A DNA stretch of 64,000 bases. It comes from Microbotryum silenes-acaulis (Eukaryota; Basidiomycota; Microbotryomycetes; Microbotryales; Microbotryaceae). A model generated the notes under the pieces. That model searched no databases and was not told the DNA's origin. It was given only the letters and a program-made list of their open reading frames with translations. Positions 40,239 through 64,000 of the stretch are shown here, in pieces. The stretch's first letter is position 1; every line of letters starts with the position of its first letter. The stretch is taken from positions 1,240,001 through 1,304,000 of the forward strand of contig QPFY01000009.1 in NCBI GenBank assembly GCA_003665825.1, in the 5' to 3' direction. The position numbers and the translations under genes were made by a program.

Positions 40239-42892
40239 TCAGAGCAAGGGAAGCAGCTGCTCAATGTCCGAGATGATGGACTCGTGCGACATCGCCTTGG
40301 ATGGACCCCACAACTCCCCCAGCTTGGCATCTTCCGCAGCCAAATTGGAACCAAAAAACCGGCTGTCAAGGCCGCAATTGCATCTCAAGATGTCGACCAG
40401 TTGCTTGATGTTCGTCCATCGTTGTGCGCAGCCTCTCAAAAGGGTGTCATATCTGGTGTCCATGCGAAGCATATACTTGTGATCATAGACTCTTTGCGCA
40501 AATGGTTGGTTCCAGTCCTCCCAGACAATCTGACCCTCTGGCGTCATGACAAGCTCTTCATTGTTGCCCTGGTTAGGTTCGCGGAACGAAGATTCCATTA
40601 TGACGTAAAAGAGCGACTCGATGTCGTGCCACCGTTCGTGGACGACACCGAGCGGCTGTTGTGGCTGGGCGAGGATCGAGCAGGCGAGGTAGGGCCAGGT
40701 GCCCTGTCAGACGTCGTATAGTCCAAAGATTAGTGCTTGTCGGAAACTTCATTCGGAGAAAACATACAGAGGGGAGGACGCACGGATCGTATTCTGTGGT
40801 GCAGCTCGGTGCAAGGCCGATCATGCGGGACGGCGAGGTGATAATCGATGAGGGCGCCGACACCGTCGCGGTCGATGACGACGTTGCCGTACGAAATATC
40901 CCGGTGAATATACCCCAGCCTGTAGAGGTTTCGGTGTCCTGCAATGTCGTGGGAATAGGCGTGTCGGCTAGGGAGCGCAAACGCAAGGCCGCCCAGTTGA
41001 TTCCCGTGCTCACCTTTGACGACTCCAAGTACGGCCTGGGCGAGTTCCCTGGTCGTGGTCGCCGTGTTGAGGGGCCGATAACACTGTCGGTGGAAGACCA
41101 CCTCGAGTGCCCGGGGCCCGATATCATCGAAGCTTTCATCATCACCGAGGAAAGTTGGAAGCGTGCGGAAGTCGTCCCGGTAGATGCCGGCGCTAAGGCT
41201 TAAACCCTCGGTGTCGATACGCGACGCAGCGTGCATCTTGCGACGTAGGGCAATCGCATCGTCGAGGCGGGATTGCTCGACCCATGCGACTGTCATAGCG
41301 TACTCGGCGGCAGGGGTAGGCGAGGTGTATGACGTGGGGTCGACAGGCGCGTGTCTTGCGGTGACGCGAAAAGCGGAAGTTGCGCGACCCAAGCAGCTTC
41401 GGCGTCGGAAGAGGAGCTCCTGGATCTCGAGATCTGAGATATCGCCGAGCTCGGACTCGAAGTCGTGGGCGCGGGGTGGGAGAAACTTGTCCGAGACGAC
41501 AAAATTGCCGAAACCATCGTCGACCTCGTTCGTCGAGGCCAGCATCCCGAGCCCGCTGTCGTCGAGTTCGATGAGGTGTGACAGCACGCGCCGGAGCAGC
41601 ACGGCTTCCTGACCGCACTTGCGGGCGCTCGTCGTGAACACCCCACACGCGTTGACGAGGTAGACTTGAAGTACGTCCCCGCAAAGGGTGACCCCGATCG
41701 CGTGGGCGCGGAGTGCGGTCGTGCAGATCATGTGTAGCCGCCTAAGCACTTGGTTACGCGCTTCTGCGCTCTTCGTGTCGCTCTCTTTCACCTCAATCGC
41801 CACTGCAATCTGCGAGTATGCGCGTTGAGGCGACGGGGGCGTGCCTTTCATCGCCTTTGGGTGCTCTGACTGCGCCCAAACGAACGGAAGATCGGGGGAA
41901 GCGGCCACCGCCGCATGCGTCAATATGACGGCGTCGGGCGTCTTCTCCTGCTCCCCGCGATCGGGCGCCAGCTTAATGTGGCTACCCGAGTTGCCGCATC
42001 CGACCAGACGTCGATCGCCAGTCTACCCCCGGGTACATCAATGATCGGGAGACAGTGGTCAGTCATACTCGTGCGGTCGAAGCCAAGCGATAGCACCGGG
42101 GCACTCACCACATCCTTGATCGCGTTAGCGATCTCTCTCATCGCAGCCTCCGTCCCCAATTGTCTGGTGGGCTGGGGGATCTTGGCCTCGTACTTGGAAG
42201 GCGTGTCGAGAAAGTACTTTTCCATCGCTTTGGAAAGTCGAGGTTTGCCCATGTGGGCAAAGAGCTGTTGCTCCCTCGCTTCCGCCGTGGCCGACATCGA
42301 CACAACGGGACTCGACCTCATCGGACTCGAGCGTGGCAAGGCATCGTCGAGGTCCGACATGCCTGACAGGCCTACGGCCTCGCGTGAACGACCTGCTCGC
42401 CCTGCTCGAGTCTTGTCGCGGATGATGGGCGCGCGTACCGGCGTTGATGGGGCGCGAGCCGACGAGCTGGGTAGGTGTGTCGGTAGCGATTGGGTGGCGG
42501 CGGGGGCAGGCTGCTGTCGTAAGGGGGTCGACGACGAACCGACGGGAGGGAGCGCGGCGCTGAGTGGGGCACAGTCGTATAGGTTGGGGTTTGCGCTTGA
42601 GCTTGCGCTTGTGCTCGATGTCGGGCCCGAATTTGTCGCGACTGAGGTCGAGGGCGGGGTCGAGGGCCGGGTCGAGGTCGAGGTTGAGGTTGAGGCCGAG
42701 GTAGGACCTTGAGCGGCGAGGCGCGCGCTCCTGCGCACTGGCACGGTCGACGCGGCGGCGCTCGGGCGCGCGGGGTTGGTGTCGGCGCGGGCGGTCACTG
42801 CAACGGCCCCAATTCGAGCGTGGGCCAGTGGCGTCAGTCATACAAGTCAGAAGGCCAAGCTCGGTCCATTATAAATTATAGGCCAACTCACT
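40239..42892 (-). CDS. FunK1-type fungal protein kinase, gene B
   Basis: Coding exons: the single base 42892, then 42797-42109, 42022-41014, 40938-40784, 40703-40239; 772 residues. The splice CCTA/TG-ACC assembles the ATG, so the start codon is split by an intron (donor GTGAGT at 42891, acceptor TTGCAG). The N-terminus MTARADTNPARPSAAAS leads into Ser/Thr/Pro low complexity, then the family region and kinase motifs: HRDISYGN (H578-D580), LIDYHLAV (D598), GTWPYLACSIL and HERWHDIESLFY. It keeps the 77-codon stretch that gene A lost. The middle of the last exon has NQPFAQRVYDHKYMLRMD, the B-type variant. It is the fullest version of this subfamily in the window. Confidence 0.8.
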
Positions 42893-43119
42893 AGGACAAG
42901 GACTCGACGCGTGATGGGTCACGGGGCAAGTCTTGAATACGAGCAGGGAGTGGGAGGAGGGTGAGGGAGAGCAAGAGTTGAAGCGACTTTCACTTTGTTG
43001 CGAAAGGTCTTTGCGAAAGGTCGAGACTGGTCGAGACGTGTCAATTACCTGACATGAATAAGCATTCCGCAACTCCCAACTCTGGACTCCGCGCGCCTGC
43101 GGCCGAAAGCGCGCCCGGA

Positions 43120-43345
43120 AGCCCATGCCAGCCCGAGGCCCATGTGGAAGAACGCTCTTTTCTGAAGTTTTTGTCGAAATTTTACACCCTCTTCTAGCAG
43201 ACGTCGGCTTCACCCAGAAATATCACCAAAAGTTGTTCTACATGCTCCAAAAGTTGCTCAAGAGTCGTCGAAAACGCGTTCCGAGCGTTTTGCGGGCGCG
43301 CGGCGGCCGATCGAAGGTGGCTTGCCGCGCGCGTCACTTCGGCTG
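43120..43345 (+). repeat. Short repeat shared with 37640-37880
   Basis: Upstream of gene B; translates to the same KYHQKLFYMLQKLLKSRRKR segment. It contains GAACAACTTTTGG-like stretches in the complement. Confidence 0.6.
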
Positions 43346-44092
43346 GTCTCCCGGCCTCAAAAGCTGGGCGGCCTGGGCCGCGGTTGAACGATACGTAGTC
43401 GTCGCGGTTGAACGATACGCAGTCGTTGACGGGCCCAATGACTCAATGACCTGTCGACCATCAATCATGTGGAACGGCACAGTACCATAAATAAGGTGGG
43501 TGGAATAGCATCCCTTCTTGCTCAATGCTCGGTCGTATTGCGACCACAGGCGGTCGGCGCCGAGCGGCAGACGCGTCGACGCGTCGACGCGACAGCCAAC
43601 GATCGAAATCCGTTTCGGGCTTGGCCGTTCGCCGCGGGTGAGGCTCGGCCGACTCGAGGACTTGTAGACGGCGATAGGTTTATTGCGACATATTCACAAT
43701 TACGATACGCCTAATTTGTGCTATCCTGCATCGTGCTTTCGAATATACTCAATCACGCTAGGTGCGTTGTGGCCTCGACGACTTTGGCGCGCGCGCGACA
43801 CGGCTCCTTTGCCTCTCCCCACTCGCCCACCTGATCCGACTTGACTCGACTCGGCTCTGATCCCACTACACCACACCTCTACGGAACAACGCTATCTCTA
43901 CATCGCCCAATCGGCAAGATGCAGCTCGATCACTCTCGACGGGCGCTCGACGTGTGCCTTTGTGCGGGTTCACGCGGGCGGTGCGACGTCGCACGACACG
44001 ACTATCAACGACTCCAACCTGGTCATTTTCGGCACGATACGATGGGCAGCTCTTGTCTGAGAGGCCGTCGTCACTTTCAGCAGCGTCCTAAC

Positions 44093-46040
44093 TACGTCGA
44101 TGCATCGCTCGAGCGTCCTCGGTCGGACACGGGCTCGGTCATCCTGATCGCACTCGCTGCTCGACCGATGAGTGTGGTGAGCTCTTCATTCAGATAGTAT
44201 TCAACGGGAACTGCATTCGCTCACCTCATTGTTGTTGGTTTCTGCTGCTCACCACTCTAGTTCAACTCGCGCGTTCGACATTGACCGACTCGCTGGCATC
44301 CGAGCTTTGCACCGAACCGGTCTGTAACATGTACGACCATACTTTGCGCATCCCTCATCAGCACCATCGAAGAGATGCTCAGCTTTCCTGAGGTCTCGAA
44401 TTGATGCACATGTTACTCGACCCACATCGCCGCACCCTGAACACCCCTTTCGACCAGTGACGATTTCCTCCGCCACCCCCACATTGTTCACTCGCGTCGT
44501 CAACGTCAGCCAATCACACGAATGCAGTCACTCGCTGTCACATCTCTTTCTTGATCGAATCGAAGAGTCTCATTGACGCCGCAAGCTCGGGGGTTGTCGG
44601 AACATCTGTTGCTCGACTCGGCGAATATTTGACCGATGCCCATCCGCACCCATCACCGACTTTCAATCCGATCCACCGGTCGACCGACCGAACCGACAAA
44701 CCTTCAAAGCTCGGTCTCCCCCTGCCCGTGCCCATCTCATCACCACAACGTGCGAAGTAACAGTCTGCTCGCCCCTCGTGACGGCCGCCTCGACCACCTC
44801 GACCATCAACCTTCCACCGCACTCGTGCTCGATCGCCATGGACTCACTGTCATCAACTGACCTACTCGCCGTGAGCGCCAACCCCAGGATCGCCCCATTC
44901 TCGACTCATCTGGCAAGTTCACCTATCGCCACGCTTGACCTCAGCTCGTCTTGATCTGTGTCGCCGCCCCCAGCTCGACACTCCCCCGTGATCTTCGCAT
45001 CCACACCGGCGCATTAGCTCGATCAACCAGGTCCCGAGTCTGGTATGCTCTCCTCTCCAACCCAGGCATCCTCTCCGCAAGTCCCATCAATACTGAAACT
45101 ACTTCAAACGCTCATCTGTGTTCCACAGCATTGCCCGACATCCCTGGCGCGCAAGATCCAAATCGCAGGTCACTCATCGTCAGCTTCCCACCGATTTGCT
45201 CAATCATCGCTCACACCCGATTCCACGAGCTTCTGGTTCGATACTGCCATCGCGAATACGACTTCTCCCGACCCGAAGTCCGTCATTTCCTTGCGATCAG
45301 CTTGACTCTTCAGCGCTGTTTTCGGCTGGCTCGGCACTCGAGGCACTTCATCGAGCAGCGTCGTCTCGACTCGGACCGTTCGGCACTCCGACGATCGATG
45401 ATCAGCTGGACCCGTCCATCTCCCAGGCAACTTGCTTCGGCCATACTTGATGGACGATCAAGCCCCAACTGACATGTGTCCGCCTCGATGTGCCCACCTT
45501 GCCCAAATTGCCACTCCAACTCGTCCGGTCAACTCGAGCTTCAACTCGACGATACTTCTAACATCGACGGCTCTACCTCTCTGACACCGTGTTTGAACGC
45601 GACCCGATACGCCAGTCGATACATTTCAATTCGACCGATTCGACTCGGACCGCGTGGCGCTAACCGCTGACATGATCGATATGAAGATTGTGATGGTGCT
45701 GTCCGTGGACGGTGTTGGAACATGATGAAAGAACGCACGGGTACATGGAAAGGCCGGTTTGTGATGTAATGCACGTCAACCCGAACATATTTTCACATCA
45801 TCGTGTGAACCCCAACGCACATTGTCCAATGATCATATGAAGCCCAACTTCCATGATCGCTGACCGTCATCATCTCCGGGTGAGCGCTCGAACACGAGAT
45901 GGTGTGGACGGTCTATGGCTTCGCCAGCCCGAATAGCGCTCCGATGATGGATGTATGGTGTGTCGTGATGAATCCCATTCGATCGTTTTCCATCTTGGAG
46001 ATCGCGAGCGCTCTCAGTGGCCGAAGGCAGCGGGGGCCGC
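44093..46040 (+). repeat. Repeat R1, copy III
   Basis: Diverged relative of 31490-33330, same orientation, ending near the 3' side of gene E as copy I ends near the 5' side of gene A. Inverted twin at 60589-62536. Confidence 0.65.
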
Positions 46041-46432
46041 CGCCCTCTCAAATACCAGAGGGCGCTCGGCCAAGCATCTTTGCAAGGATCGCGCTCGACA
46101 GCGCGCGCAGAGCTGGCGGGCAGCTGGCGGGGGGGATTTGGTATTTGGTATTTGAAAAGTGCGCATATAAACAGGTTGAAAAACACTACTGAAGCTTCGG
46201 TGCTCCTGTCTGGTCACTGGAGGCTTGCTTTCGTTATAGCCGGGCCGTCGTAATCCCACCGAAGCTCGCCCCACTCCTGTCGTCGATTGTATCGGGTTCG
46301 GCAGGATGATGTCGATTGGTCTGCGCATGCAGGATCTAGGAGTTTGATCATAACGCGCAGTACGAAGTCTAGTATTACAGTCACATTCGTCCATAGAAAT
46401 GCAAAACAGGAACGCGGATGTCGAGCACGGTT

Positions 46433-49005
46433 CTACTCGCAAAGTGCCTTCAAAGCCGCCTGGACGTGTTCATACGACATCTGACCGGAGTTCCAAAGCG
46501 ACGCAAGTTCTGGCTCTGTATTGATGGGTCTCACCCTTGCGAAAGACTGATCCAGCGAGCAATTTTGCTGCAGGACACTCAGGACCTTCTCCACGCCAGA
46601 CCAATGAGATGCGCATGCGTTCAGGAGCTCCTCGAAGCCGTGTTCCGTAGACAGCCCATTTTTCCTGCCTGCTGCATCGTCGAGATCCTTGGCATTCCAC
46701 ACGTTCCAGATACGCTCGGCTTTCGGCTTCTCGAAAAGGGGCGGGCCGGCAGACTCAGATTGAAAAGCCGTGCGGGACGCCACATAAAAAAAGGACTCGA
46801 TGTCGTGCCAGCGCTCGTGCACCACACCCTCAGTTGCGGGGCTGAGCAAGAGTCGAGAGATATAGGGTCGCGTTCCCTGTGGTTGATCATGGTACAGGGG
46901 AAGGGTGGGAAGGAGTTGGGTGAGTCCAAGAACGTGTTGAGGGCTAGCACGGACGCGAGAACGTACCGAGCGGCTGAGGCGACACTCTTCTTCTGCCGTT
47001 CGAGCCTTCTTCACCGCCAGATTGTAGTCGATCAATATTCCTTTGCCGTATTGGTCCACCATTACGTTGCCATAGGACACGTCCCGGTGGATGAAACCGT
47101 GATTCCAAAGCTGGCGATGCCCTGTCACGCAAGGGCGCAGTCGTACATCGTACACGGAAAGGGTCGTCAGTGCAGGCACACCCTTCAGCGCGCTGTCCCG
47201 CTCTGCTCTGAGCACTCACCCTCAATCGCACCCTCGAGAGCGCGCGCGAGCTGCTTGGTGTTTTCGAGCGTGGCGAGTGAGTTGTAGCACTCTTCGTGAA
47301 CGACGACCTCCCTGGCCCGCGGGGTGACACCTTTCAGGGATTCGTCGCCGGGTAGGAACATGGGGAGGGTCCTGTATTCGGTGCGAAAGACGCCGACCAG
47401 CGGAGCGAGCCCTCGGGGTCTCTTTTTTTGAATCAGGTTGCGTATCTCGGCCAAGTCCGAGTTGCGCGACTGCTCGACCCAGGTGATTGTCATCGCGCGA
47501 GTCCTGACGTTGGCGCCCTCACCAAGGGTGATCTCGTATGTCGATGTCGCACGGCCGCACTCTCTTCGTCGACGGAACAAAAGCTTCTCGATCTTGACGT
47601 TGGACATTGTCGTTGCTCCCCCGCTGAACTCGGAGGCCGCCGGCGGGAAGAAGTCGGGGCAGAGCGTGAACGGGCCGTAGCGGTCGTCGAGCGAGGTCGT
47701 GGTGGGGAGAACGCCGTTAAGCCGATCACTGTGTTTGAGGAGACGGTACAAGAAGGTCGACAGCTCTCCATTTTCTTTGGTGACCGTTCTGTGTTTGGTG
47801 AAGAACATGCCGCAAGAAGTCATAACGTAGACTTTGAGACGGTCGCCGTGCAGGGTAAACCCGATCGCATATTCTCGAATCGGCGTCGCAAGGAGTGCCG
47901 ACAAACGTCTGAACAACTGGCTCTCGGCGTTGGAGTTGTCCGTTTTAGTCTCGCCGACGGCAGCCACGTGCGTAAAGGAGCGTTTGGCCCGGTTCAGGTC
48001 CACCTTGGCCTCGGTCTTGTTTTCGTCGTCGTCGTCGTTGTCGTCCTCGTCGTACTTGTCGTACCCATCGTTGTCGGCGTCCACGGCCTCGGCCTCATCG
48101 TTCTGATGCTGGCCCTTGCCGGTTCCGTTCACGTTGGTGTCGAGATCCGCATCGGGGGCGGCTTCCTTGGCTTGCGGATCGGCGTGACTGGGAAGGGCCC
48201 ATACATTCGGGAGGGTTGGGTCGTGCGCGACCGCAGCGTGGGTCAAGAGCACGACGTCGGCCGTCTTATCGGTCGTCTTTACGCGGTCAGGTGCGACGCT
48301 GATGTACTGGGTCGAGTTCTTGCAGGCGACCAGTCGCCGGTCTCCAGTCTGAGGCCCAAGAGTGAGAAACGACGTCAGCCATCGGAGGCATACATTTCGC
48401 AACTCACGCCGCCAAGCGATCGAGTAGCCCAGGCGTCGACGCACCTGGTTGATGACATCTGCTATAACCTCGCCCAGCGCTTCTTCGGTGCCAATGTTGG
48501 ACTGCTTGGGCCAGATCTTGTTAGCGAGCTCCTCAGCGGTCGGATGGCCGAAGAAGTAGGCCTCAAGGGCCGGACAGTGTTTTTGGTGCATCTGGACCGC
48601 CTGGAAGATCCTTTCGGCTCTGGCTGTTGCTCGCTCTGCCGAGGCCGCCTCCCGGCGCGGTCGTAATGAGGTCGAAGTGGCTCGACGAGTGCGATACCGA
48701 GGTAGAGGGCCCGACGGCAAGTTTGCGGTCGCGTTCCTGGGCGCATTTGCGGTCGCTGTAGTCGCTGTCGTGGCCAGCAGGGAAGCGCGTCCCTCGCGGC
48801 GCCTGGTCGTACGTGTCAGACGTCGAAGGCAGCTGGGGGTCGGCGGATGTAGAAGCTGCGTCAGAACTACCAGCGCTTTAGCTCGACACCGTGAGAGAGT
48901 TCGATGCCATTGCGGTCGAGGTTGAAGATGAGGCGGCGCTAGAACTTTGGCGTGCGAGTCGGCGCCGTGTTGGACGAACTTCGCCTCAGACGCGCGAGGA
49001 CCCAT
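46433..49005 (-). CDS. FunK1-type fungal protein kinase, gene E
   Basis: Exons 49005-48445, 48348-47220, 47121-46967, 46876-46433; 762 residues, the same product as E'. Only distantly related to A-D but with the same intron positions: INQ/TGDRRLVACKN, AIEG/HRQLW and RS/GTRPY. Kinase motifs: HRDVSYGN (H575-D577), LIDYNLAV (D595), HERWHDIESFFYV. A polar, highly acidic insert (Asp/Glu/Asn runs, ~residues 270-300) precedes ETKTDNSNAESQLFRRLSAL. The N-terminal reading frame upstream of QMHQKHCPALEAYFFGHPTA is uncertain: a neighbouring frame (TYDQAPRGTRFPAGHDSDYS) also looks protein-like, so an extra 5' intron is possible. Divergent from gene C, with about 240 bp between starts. Confidence 0.75.
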
Positions 49006-49247
49006 GAAAGCCCAGCCCCAACGCCGCGGAATCGATGCGCGTCAACGGCAGAGATTGCGCGCCAGGCCCGTGAGTTGGCACGTCTACACTTGCGCCCCCC
49101 GCCCCCGCCGCCACCCAATCGCTACCGACACACCTACCCAGCTCGTCGGCTCGCGCCCCATCAACGCCGGTACGCGCGCCCATCATCCGCGACAAGACTC
49201 GAGCAGGGCGAGCAGGTCGTTCACGCGAGGCCGTAGGCCTGTCAGGC

Positions 49248-51368
49248 ATGTCGGACCTCGACGATGCCTTGCCACGCTCGAGTCCGATGAGGTCGAGTCC
49301 CGTTGTGTCGATGTCGGCCACGGCGGAAGCGAGGGAGCAACAGCTCTTTGCCCACATGGGCAAACCTCGACTTTCCAAAGCGATGGAAAAGTACTTTCTC
49401 GACACGCCTTCCAAGTACGAGGCCAAGATCCCCCAGCCCACCAGACAATTGGGGACGGAGGCTGCGATGAGAGAGATCGCTAACGCGATCAAGGATGTGG
49501 TGAGTGCCCCGGTGCTATCGCTTGGCTTCGACCGCACGAGTATGACTGACCACTGTCTCCCGATCATTGATGTACCCGGGGGTAGACTGGCGATCGACGT
49601 CTGGTCGGATGCGGCAACTCGGGTAGCCACATTAAGCTGGCGCCCGATCGCGGGGAGCAGGAGAAGACGCCCGACGCCGTCATATTGACGCATGCGGCGG
49701 TGGCCGCTTCCCCCGATCTTCCGTTCGTTTGGGCGCAGTCAGAGCACCCAAAGGCGATGAAAGGCACGCCCCCGTCGCCTCAACGCGCATACTCGCAGAT
49801 TGCAGTGGCGATTGAGGTGAAAGAGAGCGACACGAAGAGCGCAGAAGCGCGTAACCAAGTGCTTAGGCGGCTACACATGATCTGCACGACCGCACTCCGC
49901 GCCCACGCGATCGGGGTCACCCTTTGCGGGGACGTACTTCAAGTCTACCTCGTCAACGCGTGTGGGGTGTTCACGACGAGCGCCCGCAAGTGCGGTCAGG
50001 AAGCCGTGCTGCTCCGGCGCGTGCTGTCACACCTCATCGAACTCGACGACAGCGGGCTCGGGATGCTGGCCTCGACGAACGAGGTCGACGATGGTTTCGG
50101 CAATTTTGTCGTCTCGGACAAGTTTCTCCCACCCCGCGCCCACGACTTCGAGTCCGAGCTCGGCGATATCTCAGATCTCGAGATCCAGGAGCTCCTCTTC
50201 CGACGCCGAAGCTGCTTGGGTCGCGCAACTTCCGCTTTTCGCGTCACCGCAAGACACGCGCCTGTCGACCCCACGTCATACACCTCGCCTACCCCTGCCG
50301 CCGAGTACGCTATGACAGTCGCATGGGTCGAGCAATCCCGCCTCGACGATGCGATTGCCCTACGTCGCAAGATGCACGCTGCGTCGCGTATCGACACCGA
50401 GGGTTTAAGCCTTAGCGCCGGCATCTACCGGGACGACTTCCGCACGCTTCCAACTTTCCTCGGTGATGATGAAAGCTTCGATGATATCGGGCCCCGGGCA
50501 CTCGAGGTGGTCTTCCACCGACAGTGTTATCGGCCCCTCAACACGGCGACCACGACCAGGGAACTCGCCCAGGCCGTACTTGGAGTCGTCAAAGGTGAGC
50601 ACGGGAATCAACTGGGCGGCCTTGCGTTTGCGCTCCCTAGCCGACACGCCTATTCCCATGACAATGCAGGACACCGAAACCTCTACAAGCTGGGGTATAT
50701 GCACCGGGATATCTCGTACGGTAACGCCGTCATCGACCGCGACGGTGTCGGCGCCCTCATCGATTATCACCTCGCCGTCCCGCATGATCGACCTTGCACC
50801 GAGCTGCACCACAGAATACGATCCGTGCGTCCTCCCCTCTGTATGTGTCTCCGAATGAAGCTTCTGACCAGCACTAACCTTTGGACTATACGACGTCTGA
50901 CAGGGCACCTGGCCCTACCTCGCCTGCTCGATCCTCGCCCAGCCACAACAGCCGCTCGGTGTCGTCCACGAACGGTGGCACGACATCGAGTCGCTCTTTT
51001 ACGTCATAATGGAAGTCTCGTTCCGCGAGCCGTACCAGGGCAACACTGAAGAGCTTGTCATGACGCCAAAGGGTCAGACTACTTGGGAGGACTGGAACGA
51101 ACCATCTGCGCGCAGAGCCTATGTCTTCAAAGTTGTGCTTCGCAAGGACGAGGCATACGAATCTGTACTCGAAGGCTGCGCACATCGATGGACGAACATC
51201 AAGCAACTGGTCGATATCTTGCGACACCATTGTGGTCTTGATAACCAGTTCAATAATTTCAAGTTGGCTGCGGAAGAGGCCAAGCTGGGGGAGTTGTGGG
51301 GTCCATCCAAGGCGACGTCGCACGAGTCCATCATCTCGGACATTGAGCAGCTGCTTCCCTTGCTCTGA
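49248..51368 (+). CDS. FunK1-type fungal protein kinase, gene C (5'-shortened)
   Basis: Exons 49248-49499, 49586-50594, 50670-50824, 50904-51368; 626 residues. Identical in layout to gene B from MSDLDDALPRSSPM on, but the N-terminal ~145 codons of B are replaced upstream by unrelated sequence shared with gene E's start region, with a stop in frame; 49248 is the first usable ATG. Kinase motifs intact: H432-R433-D434 and D452. Mosaic: the 5' half is B-type (EHPKAMKGTPPSPQ, 77-codon stretch kept), the 3' half A-type (NAGHRNLYKLGYMHRD, NEPSARRAYVFKVVLRKDEA). Possibly functional, possibly a pseudogene by promoter change. Confidence 0.7.
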
Positions 51369-54300
51369 AGTGACCACCTTTGCGCTGAGCTTAAATATAG
51401 TTGCTCGTTGTTAGTTCAGAATATTGCAATAGATACCCCAGGTCAATTTCCGTCCGTTCCAGTATAATTCCAGGCTGGAAATAGGACTGCGCCAGTGGTG
51501 CCTTCATTCGGCTCGACTGCGCAGAGTTTTTGGGCTAAGCCGTAGTCTGGGATGGCCGTACGTCATTCAGGCTTCGTTCATAGAAAGTTTCTTCTGAAAA
51601 TCAAGGTTGTTGTCATACCATGTGAAAAAACGCGTAGCCTTGAGCCAACCAAATGAAAACTAAAGCCCCGCCTCAGAATCCTGTCTCTGATCTCACTGAC
51701 CCTGCAGAGGGCCGAGCCAACTTTTACCTAGTAGGTCAAGTGTGAGGACGGTCACGTTCAAGATACGCAGCGCTCGAACGAGACCCCATCATCACCAACT
51801 ATTCATGCTTATGCTCTTTCGCAACATGACCGACTCCCAAAGTCCGTTGATCTCTAGATGCGCTGAGAACTCGGTGGGCAACTGGGCAGGGTATTCGATG
51901 AGCTTAGCTCGGGGGGCGCGACGCGCCCATAACCCTGCGTAAATGCCGTAAATGAACGTCGTTGCGAGCTCCGCCGCGGTGCACCGCCCGCACCTCCCGG
52001 ACCTTGGGTGAAAAGAAAAGATCGGCGCGCGCGCGCGTCTGAGAACCTTATTTCATGGAGGCGTTTTGTCGTGCGATCCATTATATGCAGATGTAGATAG
52101 ATAGAAAGATAAGTTCCCAGCTCCCAGTTACAAAACCTAAGCTACAAAATGTCAAGTGATTGCTTTTCCAGTGCAATCTAAAGGCCCTCCGGCGAGAGGT
52201 CACGCCGAAGGCCGCTGAAATTAGGCTAAGATTGTGTCGAGATTTGCAAATGGTCCCAGAACCTCGACTTTCACAAAGGCGCCTCGACCAGATTCAGGAT
52301 TCTGGGTCCTAAACCGGTCCAAATCGCGCACGCGCCTAGAAATGATTTCGGCCCAGCTGCAGAGTACTGCAGCAGACTGCAGCGCGACAGAGCGCGACGG
52401 ACTGCGATGGCGGAAGGCGACCTGCATCCCTTCCTTTGACCAGCCACTGCAGTACATCTTCGCGCTCCCCCCATCCACCATTCTTCGTCCTGAACCACAG
52501 AGCTCCAAGTGGATCGACACTCGAGTCTCAACAGACTGCACCAACAGTGAGTCAGAATGCCCTCCTACTGTTCGTTCCGCGTGGTCTGGCTGCTCAGTGT
52601 TGACCCAACATTGACCCATGGACTGGACCCGATGGCAATTGCAGTGCCTAGTCAGGACGCCCGGCGCTCGGGCCAAGCCGTCTCAGGCGAGGTGTCGTCG
52701 GGGAGACCAGCCGAAGTGACGCGCGCGGCAAGCCACTCTCGATCGGCCGCCACGCGCCCGCAAACGCTCGGAACGCGTTTTCGACGACTCTTGAGCAACT
52801 TTTGAAGCATGTAGAACAACTTTTGGTGATATTTTGAGGCGCATGTGTAAAGCCGACATCTTTGGGCTAAAAGAGGGTGTAAAAATGCGACAAGCACTTC
52901 AATAAAGAGTGTTCTTCCACATGGTCCTCTGGCTGGCTTTCGGAGTCCTCGCGGGGGGAGTATACGGCGCTGATCACAACGACTACAAGAAGCTACCCTC
53001 TTGGTTATGAGCTGATATATCAAGTATTACAGAAGTCGAGAATCCCGAGGACAGATGTTTCTCACTCTCACAGCACTCGAATATAAAACCCTGGTCGATA
53101 CGTGCGGTGCTAAATTGTGAGGTTGATGCAGTATTTTCATCGGGACCCGGCCGGCATCCTCCGACTGAGATCACAAAGCCAAACTGACACCGCAGCACAC
53201 ATGATCTAGGCCGATCTGGTCCTTTCGAACGGGTCACTGCTGCAAGCCATATGCCTCGAATTCTGGCATATTTATTGTATCACTACGGTTGAGAGACTTA
53301 GAACACGATGACCACTGGGGTGAGGTCAATTTCCACTTCTGATCAGGAGTTGAAAGATCGCACAAGGACTCGGGGATCCTCTCGATCGCGCAAACTCGGC
53401 TCCTTTTATTTTTTCGCTGGTCGATCGGATAGTGATCCTCCGACGCTCCGCAACGCACTGTCAAATTAAAAGATCTCCACGTTGGGGAAGAATTGATGTC
53501 GTACTTTGCAGTGTTAAAGCATACTTTCAGTCAGGATCGTCGGCCGGGTGAGGGATGCGGGTCGCACAGGTTCGACCAGGCTTAGCGTGAAAGCTGGAAA
53601 CAATTTGGTGTCGAACCACGGCATGCGGCCCCAAGCAGCTCTCCTACACACACAAGTCAAGTGCTAGAGTCCGAAAGAGCCTATAGAAGAAAACTAGGGA
53701 TGCAACTACAAGGTTGAAGCCAACTCCGAATGGACCACGGCAGCATGCCATCAGCTCGGTCGGCGTGACTCGGAGCGGCGACTCGGAGGAGTACAATCGA
53801 TCCAGTGACTCTGCAGAAATCACTGCAACGTGCTCAGGCATCCAGTTTTTATTGCGTTCAGCAGTCAGTAGTCCAGTTCTCATGTTGGATTCAATACAAG
53901 AACACTCCGTTCAGGTCCTGCCCAGAAGCACCAAATCGGAGGCCGCAGGAAAACCCGGCAAGGATGGGTCAAGAAGATCAGATACGCACATATGAGCTCA
54001 AAGACCAAATGCCATTGCATCAAGGAGCACCTACTGACATATGTGTACGTCAGATATGTAGGGAAAGGAGGAACGTTGCTCGCAAAGAGTCAAGGTGGTC
54101 CTTCGTTCTCAATCTCGAGGAGAGCGGACAGGGCGTGGGTGGCCCAGAAGAGTTCGGATGGTTGGAGAAGCCTCCTCACACAACTCATCGGCGAATGTCA
54201 AGTCTTGGGTGGCGAAGGCAGCAGCGGCAAAGATGAGAGCCTGCATGCTCATTGACGAGCGATGATCGGTCCCACCAAGTTGGGTTGAGGTCCGGGTCGA

Positions 54301-55266
54301 TGGAGAGGAGATCAAAGTCGAGCAGACCAAGTCCCGCCGAAGAAGTCTGAATCCTCAATTGGAAGAGACGATGATCATTCATCCATGAGAGCGAGAAACG
54401 GTTTAGAGCGAGTCGAAGTCTAAAGAGTCGATCTAAGCGCAGGCCGGAATCTAAGACCTGGTGGAGCAAATGAAAAGTCGTACATAAGCAAGAGTGCACA
54501 TACTTGCAACGCAAGGTGTGGAGGAAGATAAGGCCCTTAGGTTGAAGGCACGCACTGACCTTTCGGACACGTGCTCGCTTAGTAGATGCCAAACGAGTTT
54601 GTCGACACCAAGCGAGGTGAGTGCAAGAAGAAGCGAAGCGAGAAGAGATGGAACACCGTGCGACGCTGAGCGCAGTCCACGACCAAATGACCAAGCTTAC
54701 TGCCGCGTGTATGATCGTGCAACTCGCATATGTGGGATGCTGAACGCACGTATCAAGCTGGTCGAGCGAATCGCCGAGATCGATTGAGAGTGCGAATGAT
54801 CGTCACGGTCCAACGCAGAAGGGTGTGGAGAAGCCCGAGTCGTGGCTGTATGATCCAGCGTGTGCACCGTAGGATCGAGTTCGAGTAAGATATGAAGCAA
54901 TGAGGTGGTGTTGTGTGGCAAATCTCGAGAGGTCAATGAGATCAAAGACAAGATTTTGGTGCGGGGCTATTCATTTCGTTGGTTCAAGGCCACGCGTTTT
55001 GATACAGGGGACAGGACAATAAACCTGATACATTTCCAAAAACAACACTCTTATGAGCAAAACGTGAATGATGTAAGGGCCCTCCCAGATTACAACTTAG
55101 GCCAGAAACTCTGCACAGTCGAGCCGAATGAAGGCACCGCTGGCGCAGTCCTATTTCCAGCCTGGAATTATACTGGAACGGACGGAAAGTGACCTTGGGT
55201 ATCTATTGCAATAATCGGATCTAAAAACGAGCAACTATATTTAAGCTCAGCGCAAAGGTGGTCACT
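51369..55266. other. Spacer 2 between convergent kinase genes C and D
   Basis: Direct copy of 36341-40238. It forms the loop of the giant palindrome; its outer ~200 bp on each side (to about 51580 and from about 55055) are a diverged inverted pair. One visible change from spacer 1: C at 40024 is T at the corresponding site near 55052. Confidence 0.6.
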
Positions 55267-57387
55267 TCAGAGCAAGGGAAGCAGCTGCTCAATGTCCGAG
55301 ATGATGGACTCGTGCGACGTCGCCTTGGATGGACCCCACAACTCCCCCAGCTTGGCCTCTTCCGCAGCCAACTTGAAATTATTGAACTGGTTATCAAGAC
55401 CACAATGGTGTCGCAAGATATCGACCAGTTGCTTGATGTTCGTCCATCGATGTGCGCAGCCTCTCAAAAGGGTGTCATATCTGGTGTCCATGCGAAGCAT
55501 ATACTTGTGATCATAGACTCTTTGCGCAAATGGTTGGTTCCAGTCCTCCCAAGTAGTCTGACCCTTTGGCGTCATGACAAGCTCTTCAGTGTTGCCCTGG
55601 TACGGCTCGCGGAACGAGACTTCCATTATGACGTAAAAGAGCGACTCGATGTCGTGCCACCGTTCGTGGACGACACCGAGCGGCTGTTGTGGCTGGGCGA
55701 GGATCGAGCAGGCGAGGTAGGGCCAGGTGCCCTGTCAGACGTCGTATAGTCCAAAGGTTAGTGCTGGTCAGAAGCTTCATTCGGAGACACATACAGAGGG
55801 GAGGACGCACGGATCGTATTCTGTGGTGCAGCTCGGTGCAAGGTCGATCATGCGGGACGGCGAGGTGATAATCGATGAGGGCGCCGACACCGTCGCGGTC
55901 GATGACGGCGTTACCGTACGAGATATCCCGGTGCATATACCCCAGCTTGTAGAGGTTTCGGTGTCCTGCATTGTCATGGGAATAGGCGTGTCGGCTAGGG
56001 AGCGCAAACGCAAGGCCGCCCAGTTGATTCCCGTGCTCACCTTTGACGACTCCAAGTACGGCCTGGGCGAGTTCCCTGGTCGTGGTCGCCGTGTTGAGGG
56101 GCCGATAACACTGTCGGTGGAAGACCACCTCGAGTGCCCGGGGCCCGATATCATCGAAGCTTTCATCATCACCGAGGAAAGTTGGAAGCGTGCGGAAGTC
56201 GTCCCGGTAGATGCCGGCGCTAAGGCTTAAACCCTCGGTGTCGATACGCGACGCAGCGTGCATCTTGCGACGTAGGGCAATCGCATCGTCGAGGCGGGAT
56301 TGCTCGACCCATGCGACTGTCATAGCGTACTCGGCGGCAGGGGTAGGCGAGGTGTATGACGTGGGGTCGACAGGCGCGTGTCTTGCGGTGACGCGAAAAG
56401 CGGAAGTTGCGCGACCCAAGCAGCTTCGGCGTCGGAAGAGGAGCTCCTGGATCTCGAGATCTGAGATATCGCCGAGCTCGGACTCGAAGTCGTGGGCGCG
56501 GGGTGGGAGAAACTTGTCCGAGACGACAAAATTGCCGAAACCATCGTCGACCTCGTTCGTCGAGGCCAGCATCCCGAGCCCGCTGTCGTCGAGTTCGATG
56601 AGGTGTGACAGCACGCGCCGGAGCAGCACGGCTTCCTGACCGCACTTGCGGGCGCTCGTCGTGAACACCCCACACGCGTTGACGAGGTAGACTTGAAGTA
56701 CGTCCCCGCAAAGGGTGACCCCGATCGCGTGGGCGCGGAGTGCGGTCGTGCAGATCATGTGTAGCCGCCTAAGCACTTGGTTACGCGCTTCTGCGCTCTT
56801 CGTGTCGCTCTCTTTCACCTCAATCGCCACTGCAATCTGCGAGTATGCGCGTTGAGGCGACGGGGGCGTGCCTTTCATCGCCTTTGGGTGCTCTGACTGC
56901 GCCCAAACGAACGGAAGATCGGGGGAAGCGGCCACCGCCGCATGCGTCAATATGACGGCGTCGGGCGTCTTCTCCTGCTCCCCGCGATCGGGCGCCAGCT
57001 TAATGTGGCTACCCGAGTTGCCGCATCCGACCAGACGTCGATCGCCAGTCTACCCCCGGGTACATCAATGATCGGGAGACAGTGGTCAGTCATACTCGTG
57101 CGGTCGAAGCCAAGCGATAGCACCGGGGCACTCACCACATCCTTGATCGCGTTAGCGATCTCTCTCATCGCAGCCTCCGTCCCCAATTGTCTGGTGGGCT
57201 GGGGGATCTTGGCCTCGTACTTGGAAGGCGTGTCGAGAAAGTACTTTTCCATCGCTTTGGAAAGTCGAGGTTTGCCCATGTGGGCAAAGAGCTGTTGCTC
57301 CCTCGCTTCCGCCGTGGCCGACATCGACACAACGGGACTCGACCTCATCGGACTCGAGCGTGGCAAGGCATCGTCGAGGTCCGACAT
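55267..57387 (-). CDS. FunK1-type fungal protein kinase, gene D (5'-shortened)
   Basis: Exons 57387-57136, 57049-56041, 55965-55811, 55731-55267; 626 residues. Mirror image of gene C, identical except for one patch of about 90 bp in the last exon (about 55450-55545), where it reads NQPFAQRVYDHKYMLRMD like gene B instead of C's NEPSARRAYVFKVVLRKD. The flanks of that patch (TEELVMTPKGQTTWEDWN before, GCAHRWTNIKQLVDILRHHC after) are C-type. Catalytic motifs are intact. Same shortened N-terminus as C. Confidence 0.7.
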
Positions 57388-57629
57388 GCCTGACAGGCCT
57401 ACGGCCTCGCGTGAACGACCTGCTCGCCCTGCTCGAGTCTTGTCGCGGATGATGGGCGCGCGTACCGGCGTTGATGGGGCGCGAGCCGACGAGCTGGGTA
57501 GGTGTGTCGGTAGCGATTGGGTGGCGGCGGGGGCGGGGGGCGCAAGTGTAGACGTGCCAACTCACGGGCCTGGCGCGCAATCTCTGCCGTTGACGCGCAT
57601 CGATTCCGCGGCGTTGGGGCTGGGCTTTC

Positions 57630-60202
57630 ATGGGTCCTCGCGCGTCTGAGGCGAAGTTCGTCCAACACGGCGCCGACTCGCACGCCAAAGTTCTAGCGCC
57701 GCCTCATCTTCAACCTCGACCGCAATGGCATCGAACTCTCTCACGGTGTCGAGCTAAAGCGCTGGTAGTTCTGACGCAGCTTCTACATCCGCCGACCCCC
57801 AGCTGCCTTCGACGTCTGACACGTACGACCAGGCGCCGCGAGGGACGCGCTTCCCTGCTGGCCACGACAGCGACTACAGCGACCGCAAATGCGCCCAGGA
57901 ACGCGACCGCAAACTTGCCGTCGGGCCCTCTACCTCGGTATCGCACTCGTCGAGCCACTTCGACCTCATTACGACCGCGCCGGGAGGCGGCCTCGGCAGA
58001 GCGAGCAACAGCCAGAGCCGAAAGGATCTTCCAGGCGGTCCAGATGCACCAAAAACACTGTCCGGCCCTTGAGGCCTACTTCTTCGGCCATCCGACCGCT
58101 GAGGAGCTCGCTAACAAGATCTGGCCCAAGCAGTCCAACATTGGCACCGAAGAAGCGCTGGGCGAGGTTATAGCAGATGTCATCAACCAGGTGCGTCGAC
58201 GCCTGGGCTACTCGATCGCTTGGCGGCGTGAGTTGCGAAATGTATGCCTCCGATGGCTGACGTCGTTTCTCACTCTTGGGCCTCAGACTGGAGACCGGCG
58301 ACTGGTCGCCTGCAAGAACTCGACCCAGTACATCAGCGTCGCACCTGACCGCGTAAAGACGACCGATAAGACGGCCGACGTCGTGCTCTTGACCCACGCT
58401 GCGGTCGCGCACGACCCAACCCTCCCGAATGTATGGGCCCTTCCCAGTCACGCCGATCCGCAAGCCAAGGAAGCCGCCCCCGATGCGGATCTCGACACCA
58501 ACGTGAACGGAACCGGCAAGGGCCAGCATCAGAACGATGAGGCCGAGGCCGTGGACGCCGACAACGATGGGTACGACAAGTACGACGAGGACGACAACGA
58601 CGACGACGACGAAAACAAGACCGAGGCCAAGGTGGACCTGAACCGGGCCAAACGCTCCTTTACGCACGTGGCTGCCGTCGGCGAGACTAAAACGGACAAC
58701 TCCAACGCCGAGAGCCAGTTGTTCAGACGTTTGTCGGCACTCCTTGCGACGCCGATTCGAGAATATGCGATCGGGTTTACCCTGCACGGCGACCGTCTCA
58801 AAGTCTACGTTATGACTTCTTGCGGCATGTTCTTCACCAAACACAGAACGGTCACCAAAGAAAATGGAGAGCTGTCGACCTTCTTGTACCGTCTCCTCAA
58901 ACACAGTGATCGGCTTAACGGCGTTCTCCCCACCACGACCTCGCTCGACGACCGCTACGGCCCGTTCACGCTCTGCCCCGACTTCTTCCCGCCGGCGGCC
59001 TCCGAGTTCAGCGGGGGAGCAACGACAATGTCCAACGTCAAGATCGAGAAGCTTTTGTTCCGTCGACGAAGAGAGTGCGGCCGTGCGACATCGACATACG
59101 AGATCACCCTTGGTGAGGGCGCCAACGTCAGGACTCGCGCGATGACAATCACCTGGGTCGAGCAGTCGCGCAACTCGGACTTGGCCGAGATACGCAACCT
59201 GATTCAAAAAAAGAGACCCCGAGGGCTCGCTCCGCTGGTCGGCGTCTTTCGCACCGAATACAGGACCCTCCCCATGTTCCTACCCGGCGACGAATCCCTG
59301 AAAGGTGTCACCCCGCGGGCCAGGGAGGTCGTCGTTCACGAAGAGTGCTACAACTCACTCGCCACGCTCGAAAACACCAAGCAGCTCGCGCGCGCTCTCG
59401 AGGGTGCGATTGAGGGTGAGTGCTCAGAGCAGAGCGGGACAGCGCGCTGAAGGGTGTGCCTGCACTGACGACCCTTTCCGTGTACGATGTACGACTGCGC
59501 CCTTGCGTGACAGGGCATCGCCAGCTTTGGAATCACGGTTTCATCCACCGGGACGTGTCCTATGGCAACGTAATGGTGGACCAATACGGCAAAGGAATAT
59601 TGATCGACTACAATCTGGCGGTGAAGAAGGCTCGAACGGCAGAAGAAGAGTGTCGCCTCAGCCGCTCGGTACGTTCTCGCGTCCGTGCTAGCCCTCAACA
59701 CGTTCTTGGACTCACCCAACTCCTTCCCACCCTTCCCCTGTACCATGATCAACCACAGGGAACGCGACCCTATATCTCTCGACTCTTGCTCAGCCCCGCA
59801 ACTGAGGGTGTGGTGCACGAGCGCTGGCACGACATCGAGTCCTTTTTTTATGTGGCGTCCCGCACGGCTTTTCAATCTGAGTCTGCCGGCCCGCCCCTTT
59901 TCGAGAAGCCGAAAGCCGAGCGTATCTGGAACGTGTGGAATGCCAAGGATCTCGACGATGCAGCAGGCAGGAAAAATGGGCTGTCTACGGAACACGGCTT
60001 CGAGGAGCTCCTGAACGCATGCGCATCTCATTGGTCTGGCGTGGAGAAGGTCCTGAGTGTCCTGCAGCAAAATTGCTCGCTGGATCAGTCTTTCGCAAGG
60101 GTGAGACCCATCAATACAGAGCCAGAACTTGCGTCGCTTTGGAACTCCGGTCAGATGTCGTATGAACACGTCCAGGCGGCTTTGAAGGCACTTTGCGAGT
60201 AG
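57630..60202 (+). CDS. FunK1-type fungal protein kinase, gene E'
   Basis: Exons 57630-58190, 58287-59415, 59514-59668, 59759-60202; 762 residues, mirror copy of gene E in the right palindrome arm. The first intron (96 nt, GTGCGT...CTCAG) is a multiple of three without a stop, so the unspliced frame also stays open; comparison with genes A-D, which splice at the homologous position before TGDRRLV, supports splicing. Divergent from gene D. Confidence 0.75.
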
Positions 60203-60588
60203 AACCGTGCTCGACATCCGCGTTCCTGTTTTGCATTTCTATGGACGAATGTGACTGTAATACTAGACTTCGTACTGCGCGTTATGATCAAACTCCTAGA
60301 TCCTGCATGCGCAGACCAATCGACATCATCCTGCCGAACCCGATACAATCGACGACAGGAGTGGGGCGAGCTTCGGTGGGATTACGACGGCCCGGCTATA
60401 ACGAAAGCAAGCCTCCAGTGACCAGACAGGAGCACCGAAGCTTCAGTAGTGTTTTTCAACCTGTTTATATGCGCACTTTTCAAATACCAAATACCAAATC
60501 CCCCCCGCCAGCTGCCCGCCAGCTCTGCGCGCGCTGTCGAGCGCGGCAAAGATGCTTGGCCGAGCGCCCTCTGGTATTTGAGAGGGCG

Positions 60589-62536
60589 GCGGCCCCCGCT
60601 GCCTTCGGCCACTGAGAGCGCTCGCGATCTCCAAGATGGAAAACGATCGAATGGGATTCATCACGACACACCATACATCCATCATCGGAGCGCTATTCGG
60701 GCTGGCGAAGCCATAGACCGTCCACACCATCTCGTGTTCGAGCGCTCACCCGGAGATGATGACGGTCAGCGATCATGGAAGTTGGGCTTCATATGATCAT
60801 TGGACAATGTGCGTTGGGGTTCACACGATGATGTGAAAATATGTTCGGGTTGACGTGCATTACATCACAAACCGGCCTTTCCATGTACCCGTGCGTTCTT
60901 TCATCATGTTCCAACACCGTCCACGGACAGCACCATCACAATCTTCATATCGATCATGTCAGCGGTTAGCGCCACGCGGTCCGAGTCGAATCGGTCGAAT
61001 TGAAATGTATCGACTGGCGTATCGGGTCGCGTTCAAACACGGTGTCAGAGAGGTAGAGCCGTCGATGTTAGAAGTATCGTCGAGTTGAAGCTCGAGTTGA
61101 CCGGACGAGTTGGAGTGGCAATTTGGGCAAGGTGGGCACATCGAGGCGGACACATGTCAGTTGGGGCTTGATCGTCCATCAAGTATGGCCGAAGCAAGTT
61201 GCCTGGGAGATGGACGGGTCCAGCTGATCATCGATCGTCGGAGTGCCGAACGGTCCGAGTCGAGACGACGCTGCTCGATGAAGTGCCTCGAGTGCCGAGC
61301 CAGCCGAAAACAGCGCTGAAGAGTCAAGCTGATCGCAAGGAAATGACGGACTTCGGGTCGGGAGAAGTCGTATTCGCGATGGCAGTATCGAACCAGAAGC
61401 TCGTGGAATCGGGTGTGAGCGATGATTGAGCAAATCGGTGGGAAGCTGACGATGGGTGACCTGCGATTTGGATCTTGCGCGCCAGGGATGTCGGGCAATG
61501 CTGTGGAACACAGATGAGCGTTTGAAGTAGTTTCAGTATTGATGGGACTTGCGGAGAGGATGCCTGGGTTGGAGAGGAGAGCATACCAGACTCGGGACCT
61601 GGTTGATCGAGCTAATGCGCCGGTGTGGATGCGAAGATCACGGGGGAGTGTCGAGCTGGGGGCGGCGACACAGATCAAGACGAGCTGAGGTCAAGCGTGG
61701 CGATAGGTGAACTTGCCAGATGAGTCGAGAATGGGGCGATCCTGGGGTTGGCGCTCACGGCGAGTAGGTCAGTTGATGACAGTGAGTCCATGGCGATCGA
61801 GCACGAGTGCGGTGGAAGGTTGATGGTCGAGGTGGTCGAGGCGGCCGTCACGAGGGGCGAGCAGACTGTTACTTCGCACGTTGTGGTGATGAGATGGGCA
61901 CGGGCAGGGGGAGACCGAGCTTTGAAGGTTTGTCGGTTCGGTCGGTCGACCGGTGGATCGGATTGAAAGTCGGTGATGGGTGCGGATGGGCATCGGTCAA
62001 ATATTCGCCGAGTCGAGCAACAGATGTTCCGACAACCCCCGAGCTTGCGGCGTCAATGAGACTCTTCGATTCGATCAAGAAAGAGATGTGACAGCGAGTG
62101 ACTGCATTCGTGTGATTGGCTGACGTTGACGACGCGAGTGAACAATGTGGGGGTGGCGGAGGAAATCGTCACTGGTCGAAAGGGGTGTTCAGGGTGCGGC
62201 GATGTGGGTCGAGTAACATGTGCATCAATTCGAGACCTCAGGAAAGCTGAGCATCTCTTCGATGGTGCTGATGAGGGATGCGCAAAGTATGGTCGTACAT
62301 GTTACAGACCGGTTCGGTGCAAAGCTCGGATGCCAGCGAGTCGGTCAATGTCGAACGCGCGAGTTGAACTAGAGTGGTGAGCAGCAGAAACCAACAACAA
62401 TGAGGTGAGCGAATGCAGTTCCCGTTGAATACTATCTGAATGAAGAGCTCACCACACTCATCGGTCGAGCAGCGAGTGCGATCAGGATGACCGAGCCCGT
62501 GTCCGACCGAGGACGCTCGAGCGATGCATCGACGTA
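60589..62536 (-). repeat. Repeat R1, inverted copy III'
   Basis: Reverse complement of 44093-46040 with a few single-base differences; one lies near 45171/61458. Confidence 0.7.
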
Positions 62537-63283
62537 GTTAGGACGCTGCTGAAAGTGACGACGGCCTCTCAGACAAGAGCTGCCCATCGTATCGTGCCGA
62601 AAATGACCAGGTTGGAGTCGTTGATAGTCGTGTCGTGCGACGTCGCACCGCCCGCGTGAACCCGCACAAAGGCACACGTCGAGCGCCCGTCGAGAGTGAT
62701 CGAGCTGCATCTTGCCGATTGGGCGATGTAGAGATAGCGTTGTTCCGTAGAGGTGTGGTGTAGTGGGATCAGAGCCGAGTCGAGTCAAGTCGGATCAGGT
62801 GGGCGAGTGGGGAGAGGCAAAGGAGCCGTGTCGCGCGCGCGCCAAAGTCGTCGAGGCCACAACGCACCTAGCGTGATTGAGTATATTCGAAAGCACGATG
62901 CAGGATAGCACAAATTAGGCGTATCGTAATTGTGAATATGTCGCAATAAACCTATCGCCGTCTACAAGTCCTCGAGTCGGCCGAGCCTCACCCGCGGCGA
63001 ACGGCCAAGCCCGAAACGGATTTCGATCGTTGGCTGTCGCGTCGACGCGTCGACGCGTCTGCCGCTCGGCGCCGACCGCCTGTGGTCGCAATACGACCGA
63101 GCATTGAGCAAGAAGGGATGCTATTCCACCCACCTTATTTATGGTACTGTGCCGTTCCACATGATTGATGGTCGACAGGTCATTGAGTCATTGGGCCCGT
63201 CAACGACTGCGTATCGTTCAACCGCGACGACTACGTATCGTTCAACCGCGGCCCAGGCCGCCCAGCTTTTGAGGCCGGGAGAC

Positions 63284-63509
63284 CAGCCGAAGTGACGCGC
63301 GCGGCAAGCCACCTTCGATCGGCCGCCGCGCGCCCGCAAAACGCTCGGAACGCGTTTTCGACGACTCTTGAGCAACTTTTGGAGCATGTAGAACAACTTT
63401 TGGTGATATTTCTGGGTGAAGCCGACGTCTGCTAGAAGAGGGTGTAAAATTTCGACAAAAACTTCAGAAAAGAGCGTTCTTCCACATGGGCCTCGGGCTG
63501 GCATGGGCT
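63284..63509 (-). repeat. Inverted copy of the short repeat at 43120-43345
   Basis: Part of the right palindrome arm, upstream of gene B'. Confidence 0.7.
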
Positions 63510-63736
63510 TCCGGGCGCGCTTTCGGCCGCAGGCGCGCGGAGTCCAGAGTTGGGAGTTGCGGAATGCTTATTCATGTCAGGTAATTGACACGTCTCGACC
63601 AGTCTCGACCTTTCGCAAAGACCTTTCGCAACAAAGTGAAAGTCGCTTCAACTCTTGCTCTCCCTCACCCTCCTCCCACTCCCTGCTCGTATTCAAGACT
63701 TGCCCCGTGACCCATCACGCGTCGAGTCCTTGTCCT

Positions 63737-64000
63737 AGTGAGTTGGCCTATAATTTATAATGGACCGAGCTTGGCCTTCTGACTTGTATGACTGACGCCA
63801 CTGGCCCACGCTCGAATTGGGGCCGTTGCAGTGACCGCCCGCGCCGACACCAACCCCGCGCGCCCGAGCGCCGCCGCGTCGACCGTGCCAGTGCGCAGGA
63901 GCGCGCGCCTCGCCGCTCAAGGTCCTACCTCGGCCTCAACCTCAACCTCGACCTCGACCCGGCCCTCGACCCCGCCCTCGACCTCAGTCGCGACAAATTC
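63737..64000 (+). CDS. FunK1-type kinase gene B', 5' end only
   Basis: Mirror of the start of gene B: the A of the split ATG at 63737, donor GTGAGT at 63738, acceptor TTGCAG ending at 63831, then TG-ACC-GCC-CGC. The low-complexity N-terminus runs off the window end. Completeness cannot be judged. Confidence 0.7.

Follow-up and report, generated by a model that had tools for sequence, protein, structure and literature searches.

The DNA analysed here, a stretch of 64,000 nucleotides that we call the window, belongs to the Microbotryum silenes-acaulis genome (assembly of 29.85 Mb; positions 1,240,001-1,304,000 of the 1,351,983-bp contig QPFY01000009.1, hereafter C9) and contains a large part of a tandem array of predicted fungal kinase genes of the FunK1 family. 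The remainder of C9 was joined on, with window coordinates continued past 64000, and on this scale the array spans 34488 to 81738, at 30-77 kb from the contig end. It consists of three units of about 15.02 kb, each composed of a loop (3229 bp), a FunK1 gene that we call m (2.6 kb), an inner segment (6.6 kb) and a FunK1 gene that we call p (2.6 kb). The m and p genes are 2.6-kb repeats in opposite orientation that bracket every inner segment. This outer gene occurs seven times in the whole array, once in truncated form, and the FunK1 gene of the inner segment occurs three times.

The array opens with p0 (34488-36673, plus strand), the outermost copy, which lacks its first 187 bp and carries an internal deletion of about 231 bp. 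It is followed by loop L1 (36674-39902, plus), by m1 (39903-42510, minus), which is inverted relative to p1 and is the least p1-like of the m copies, and by inner segment F1 (42511-49097, 6587 bp, forward), whose FunK1 gene lies on the minus strand at 46433-49041 with open frames at 47185-49041 and 46433-47215. Next come p1 (49098-51701, plus, 2604 bp), the inverted partner of m1 and m2 and one base different from p2, and loop L2 (51702-54930, plus), the middle of the apparent palindrome discussed below. The array continues with m2 (54931-57537, minus) and inner segment R2 (57538-64118, minus, within the window to 64000), whose FunK1 gene is on the plus strand at 57594-60202. Beyond the window lie p2 (64119-66722), L3 (66723-69951), m3 (69952-72558), F3 (72559-79144) and p3 (79145-81738), the last without an adjoining loop. 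Successive loops start 15,028 and 15,021 bp apart, and all three are 100% identical across 3229 bp and face the same way. The inner segments are 99.9% identical, with two single-nucleotide variants (SNVs), one 6-bp indel and one 1-bp indel among F1, R2 and F3, and only R2, in unit 2, is inverted, F3 being oriented as F1.

Both genes match the Pkinase_fungal/FunK1 profile (PF17667), the outer with 68.9 bits and the inner with 42.2 bits (curated cut-off 24.1), and a homologue from M. saponariae scores 102.2 bits. The profile is not fully specific, with matches in four of 14 control genomes (two above the cut-off), and genome-wide counts of FunK1 matches are lower bounds. The catalytic loops read HRDVSYGN and HRDISYGN, in which a serine replaces the usual lysine (HRDxSxxN), a hallmark of FunK1 according to excerpted text of a Paracoccidioides study (PMC3203195). 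The same excerpts describe FunK1 as expanded in several fungal lineages, with function unsettled, and state that no member was predicted to be secreted (PMC3203195).

The closest protein matches were in M. saponariae, where P0015 has 94% identity across 86% of the outer query, P0021 95% across 56% of it, and P0001 87% across 83% of the inner query; they were found in a database clustered at 90%, within a cluster of which an identical outer gene could be hidden. Matches in M. silenes-dioicae, M. lychnidis-dioicae and M. intermedium came next, and a sequence search of the PDB gave four matches, the best with an E value of only 0.65. By locus number, the M. saponariae genes of outer (g09022), inner (g09026) and outer (g09028) type lie near one another, and the gene order of the unit may therefore be older than this species. 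Kinases usually have an ATP-binding lysine in strand beta-3. This lysine is not evident in the outer gene (AMTVAWVEQSR, for example in 49586-51049) or, for the inner type, in P0001 (AMTITWVEQSR), and these proteins may or may not be active kinases.

A preliminary description of the window had reported a giant palindrome, and its long inverted arms are confirmed by self-comparison: 42629-51701 and 54931-64000 are reverse complements, 99.0% identical over 9.09 kb. The 6-bp indel and the short divergent patch said to distinguish the arms are likewise present, the patch being the hypervariable exon for the C-terminal lobe (C-lobe) of the kinase and not a mere imperfection. The outer end of the right arm, expected beyond 64000, can now be placed, as the arm passes 64118 into gene p2 and ends at 66722. 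With the contig beyond the window included, the full arms (39903-51701 and 54931-66722) measure 11.8 kb at 98.2% identity. Other elements of that description need revision. The loop given as 3.9 kb (51377-55258) has an unpaired part of only 3229 bp (51702-54930), the rest being arm sequence, about 325 bp per side, that has diverged to 83% identity, and in place of seven FunK1 genes or gene parts in 42635-64000 we found four genes (in F1, p1, m2 and R2) with at least eight Pfam matches.

Nor is a palindrome as an independent structure supported. A direct repeat is also present, in which 35045-42507 equals 50073-57534 at 99.2%, and a third copy lies beyond the window. There is no mirror symmetry about a single-copy centre, given that the centre occurs three times in one orientation and m2 does not mirror p1. 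The palindrome arises because, within a tandem triplication, the 6.6-kb inner segment of the middle unit alone is inverted, and it is most plausibly a side effect of this flip within a young FunK1 array of subtelomeric position.

The ends of the outer genes bear on how the segment was flipped. All outer copies of the array but p0, six in number, are identical at offsets 1-1561. Six copies adjoin a loop, and their 3′ ends are m-type to the right of it and p-type to the left. Since these types keep their sides of the loop, only the DNA between the repeats was flipped. A crossover between m and p in unit 2 would turn the inner segment around and leave the 3′ types unmoved, which matches the observation. 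Such an inversion would also exchange the 5′ surroundings of m and p, and the first open frame indeed encodes 296 amino acids in m1, p2 and m3 and 204 in p1, m2 and p3. The crossover site is not placeable inside identical repeats, in which offsets 1-1561 leave room for it. From this geometry we infer that m and p, as inverted repeats, crossed over and so produced the flipped segment of unit 2.

Differences among the array copies cluster in the 3′ part of the outer gene. The hypervariable C-lobe stretch lies at 51069-51284 in p1 (plus strand; repeat offset about 1972-2187) and at 55351-55566 in m2 (minus strand). Nucleotide diversity in 100-bp windows, calculated for 10 of the 14 longer copies (omitting the near-identical p2 and C8_1539554, the truncated p0 and the partial C39_14408), is 0.22 and 0.16 at offsets 2001-2200, 0.063 in the adjoining window before, 0.025 in that after and 0.000-0.119 elsewhere.

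The C-lobe exon was collected from 45 outer copies (seven from the array, four from contig C8, two from C3, one from C39 and 31 from other stretches). Two copies with frameshifted C-termini, L047 and L053, were left out of the codon work; their frameshifts fall within or after the hypervariable stretch. The other 43 exons are in frame through a conserved C-terminal motif, a statement that for most copies concerns that exon only, and they represent 34 unique haplotypes. At codons 65-94, nonsynonymous differences per site (pN) are 0.27-0.30, synonymous differences per site (pS) are 0.25-0.32 and the ratio of the corresponding rates (dN/dS) is 0.93-1.09; at codons 5-44 and 135-154, pN is 0.03-0.04 and dN/dS 0.16-0.33. 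The variable stretch follows a conserved HDIES motif. The kinase C-lobe after such a motif usually bears helices that dock substrates and partners, and from its position the stretch is a putative docking surface.

Within this stretch the residues form recurring blocks whose combinations vary among copies. A statistic modelled on the pairwise homoplasy index (PHI), computed with our own script, was 0.620, compared with a permuted mean of 0.765, and none of 1000 permutations was as low. Linkage disequilibrium (r2) drops from 0.316 for sites less than 10 bp apart to 0.045 for those separated by 200 bp and more, with most of the decay inside tens of bases. A copying model gave a total cost of 253, compared with a mean of 417 for shuffled columns (minimum 393, 20 shuffles). 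The model covered 13 of 18 Microbotryum proteins and skipped donors with two or fewer whole-exon differences; two C8 copies with identical C-lobes, which differ upstream, stayed as donors.

Individual array genes give the same picture. The m2 exon is an exact chimera of p (positions 1-195), m1 (196-284, 89 bp) and p1 (285-477), with zero mismatches, and the m3 exon is almost wholly accounted for by p and m1 alleles. The p3 exon needs patches from array copies and from a sequence akin to a copy found on a different contig, leaving three mismatches. A mosaic variable region, conserved flanks and many donors, which characterize variant families diversified by segmental gene conversion, are all present, and the mosaic was probably built by gene conversion.

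The array also serves as an internal clock, because identical spacer DNA stands next to rewritten gene tails. Across the three units, two SNVs and two indels make up all the differences in the 9.8 kb of loop plus inner DNA, which bears out the earlier suggestion of a recent event or continuous homogenization. Over the same units, the 2.6-kb m genes differ by 47 (m1/m2), 29 (m2/m3) and 74 (m1/m3) substitutions. Near-identical spacers beside such tails suggest that conversion outpaces point mutation in this array.

Repeat mutation resembling repeat-induced point mutation (RIP) and targeted to TCG has been reported in Microbotryum. We computed our own version of the RIP-like index, in which TCGA overlaps are subtracted where the paper's text has TGCA. 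Outside the array the index was -0.33 at 1-28000 and between -0.25 and -0.30 in two stretches to the right; inside it, p0, L1, m1, F1, p1 and R2 gave -0.36 to -0.45. These six array segments thus show no overall RIP-like excess despite near-100% identical repeats; two 1-kb windows in the array were not negative (63001-64000, +0.23; 73001-74000, +0.01). With the index negative in all six segments, RIP was judged an unlikely origin of the divergent patch.

Copies of the outer repeat are numerous and concentrated near contig ends. We counted at least 40, with p0 taken as one, of which nine are on contigs shorter than 100 kb. On contigs above 100 kb, 30 of 31 copies lie within 90 kb of an end, a zone that makes up 17% of the sequence of those contigs, the 90-kb limit having been set after the distances were seen. 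Five further copies are at C3:2009925, at C39:14408, near 43 kb and near 1504 kb on C8, and on C86. Three of these five are on large contigs, two of them within 90 kb of an end; with these three counted in by hand, the large-contig total becomes 32 of 34 within 90 kb, the misses being C15:272234 and C3:2009925 (112 kb). Together with the position of the array itself, these counts agree with the proposal that an amplified locus lies near a chromosome end.

Other inverted pairs occur in the same assembly. At C8:1519226-1531018 (L015-L017), arms of 4.3 kb at 96.1% identity have an inner-type FunK1 gene between them, and the pair adjoins 6.4-kb tandem units (98.1% over 10.9 kb). A further inverted pair of the module is formed by C3:2008882-2013342 and 2037803-2042260 (L020-L022; 98.7% over 4.5 kb). 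Contig C9 ends in a satellite of 63/84/147 bp (L013 5849-7984) with no TTAGGG repeat, a repeat that is present at the end of C8. Past the array there are two blocks of satellite, at 92796-94750 and 109747-111983. On either side of the array, 30834-33323 and 96568-99459 are diverged (73-81%) relatives of the loop end and inner segment, and two open reading frames (ORFs) scanned near the left one gave no Pfam match. A diverged self-complementary stretch, 76.9% identical to its own reverse complement, is present at 29404-30208.

Related C-lobes occur in other species. The C-lobe of M. saponariae P0015 differs from that of m1 at two of 129 residues. When one or two switches among this genome's copies are allowed, the seven other M. 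saponariae C-lobes compared are covered with 5 to 17 mismatches left, and five from M. silenes-dioicae with 9 to 29. Nine inner-type copies (with outer-type matches of less than 45% identity and duplicates removed, L029 and L030 being nearly alike) have pN of 0.12-0.32 and pS of 0.12-0.37 after the HDIES region (columns 51-130), and pN of 0.04-0.06 before it (columns 1-40). This rise indicates that variation in a second FunK1 subfamily falls at the corresponding position.

Taken together, these data make it likely that the locus is a very young subtelomeric array of three FunK1 units in which the middle segment was flipped and the C-lobe exons were patched by conversion. Units of about 15 kb would have multiplied by unequal exchange, and in unit 2 a crossover between inverted m and p would have turned the inner segment around, creating the palindrome. 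Ectopic gene conversion could then homogenize the first 1.56 kb or so of the outer gene and patch short tracts, from tens to about 100 bp, into the C-lobe exon, where the mosaic itself is observed. In array copies, C-lobe modules would thereby be combined anew at a pace beyond the reach of point mutation, and the likely, though unproven, benefit would be a diverse kinase repertoire.

Several observations weigh against this account. Gene p3, which borders no loop, carries mixed m-like and p-like 3′ alleles. The C-lobes of the inner gene and of M. saponariae P0001 are identical along 147 residues, with 87% identity in the N-terminal part compared; this identity may reflect constraint or a shared module, as with m1 and P0015. 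Across codons 61-132 the dN/dS is 0.64, near but not clearly above 1 at codons 65-94 only. Finally, consensus mixing of near-identical repeats could yield chimeras such as m2 and m3 or a wrong orientation. An assembly artefact of this kind, with fewer true units expanded and both the middle orientation and the array mosaics produced by mixing, would fit the 100% identity of the loops, the coverage of m2 fully and m3 almost fully by p and m1 alleles, and the lack of a telomere on C9, which finishes in satellite. Yet every inner copy carries a variant of its own: F1 has T at 2664, R2 lacks 6 bp, and F3 shows G at 5972 and a 1-bp indel. This argues for three real copies, although the single-base variants could themselves be consensus errors. 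A base at offset 2486 is common to m2 and m3 and not found in m1, and mosaic C-lobes are also found away from the array, on many other contigs and among annotated M. saponariae proteins; a mixed consensus is unlikely to lie behind all 34 haplotypes on many contigs and the M. saponariae mosaics. In addition, other Microbotryum genomes came from haploid cells and were built with PacBio P6/C4, PBcR and Quiver, according to excerpts of PMC5962589, a method that this assembly may or may not share. We regard an artefact as improbable on the whole, though individual copies may be misassembled. Still less credible is a fold-back or template-switch duplication around loop 2 that gave a true palindrome. 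Arms of 11.8 kb at 98% identity around a 3.2-kb spacer would suit it, but it would mirror p1 in m2 and leave no direct loop repeat, whereas m2 is m-type at its loop end, the loops all face one way, and loop and flanks return in direct orientation every 15.02 kb; it was rejected on these grounds. It is similarly very doubtful that the inner segment encodes its own recombinase and inverts in a programmed way, switching a promoter or 5′ end for the flanking kinase genes. The flip does swap the 5′ context of m and p, but the long homologous repeats are enough for ordinary recombination, and the 10 scanned ORFs that overlap the array gave four FunK1 matches and six without a match. No recombinase was found among the 20 ORFs scanned, these 10 included, a scan outside which the shorter ORFs of loop and inner segment fall.

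The remaining alternative is compatible with the anatomy of the array and concerns the mosaic alone, which would be long-standing variation in subtelomeric genes that are decaying under relaxed constraint, and would have no function in diversity. We consider this a real possibility, though short of probable. The modest dN/dS speaks for it, as do the frameshifted C-termini of L047 and L053 and the stops in eight of 142 listed FunK1 match rows of the genome. With dN/dS at or below about 1, diversifying selection and relaxed constraint are not separable. Against it stand the 43 of 45 C-lobe exons that keep their frame, the low dN/dS of the flanking codons, and a second subfamily that is variable at the same stretch.

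The main biological point of the locus is the mosaic, hypervariable kinase C-lobe rather than the palindrome. This stretch is variable in two subfamilies, mosaic, and near-identical across species at one copy, which points to a specific surface under exchange and opens FunK1 function to testing. More tentatively, and with considerable doubt, FunK1 kinases of anther smuts might form a combinatorial repertoire in which the C-lobe recognition surface is continually reassembled by conversion from a trans-species pool of short modules in inversion-prone subtelomeric arrays, as in antigenic variation but for an intracellular kinase. If so, the repertoire could help to recognize substrates or partners during host interaction, or to tell self from non-self.

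Word searches of one literature library found no publication that joins FunK1 with subtelomeric location, Microbotryum or gene conversion, or PF17667 with subtelomeric location, and among the papers listed none seemed to describe such a palindrome in Microbotryum. The array shares with other lineage-specific FunK1 expansions the PF17667 match, the HRDxSxxN serine and growth by duplication; its distinguishing traits are copies that lie in subtelomeric inverted and tandem arrays and have a mosaic C-lobe. Ampliconic palindromes of sex chromosomes have long, near-identical inverted arms that bear genes and undergo arm-to-arm conversion. The arms described here resemble them in length, identity and gene content, but they are part of a tandem array of which a single segment is flipped, and what marks the gene tail here is diversification instead of homogenization. 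The trypanosome VSG, Plasmodium var and Pneumocystis MSG genes are subtelomeric variant families diversified by segmental gene conversion. Although the product here is a predicted kinase and not a surface antigen, the FunK1 array has in common with these families its subtelomeric location, donors elsewhere in the genome, and short-tract mosaics in a hypervariable region between conserved flanks.

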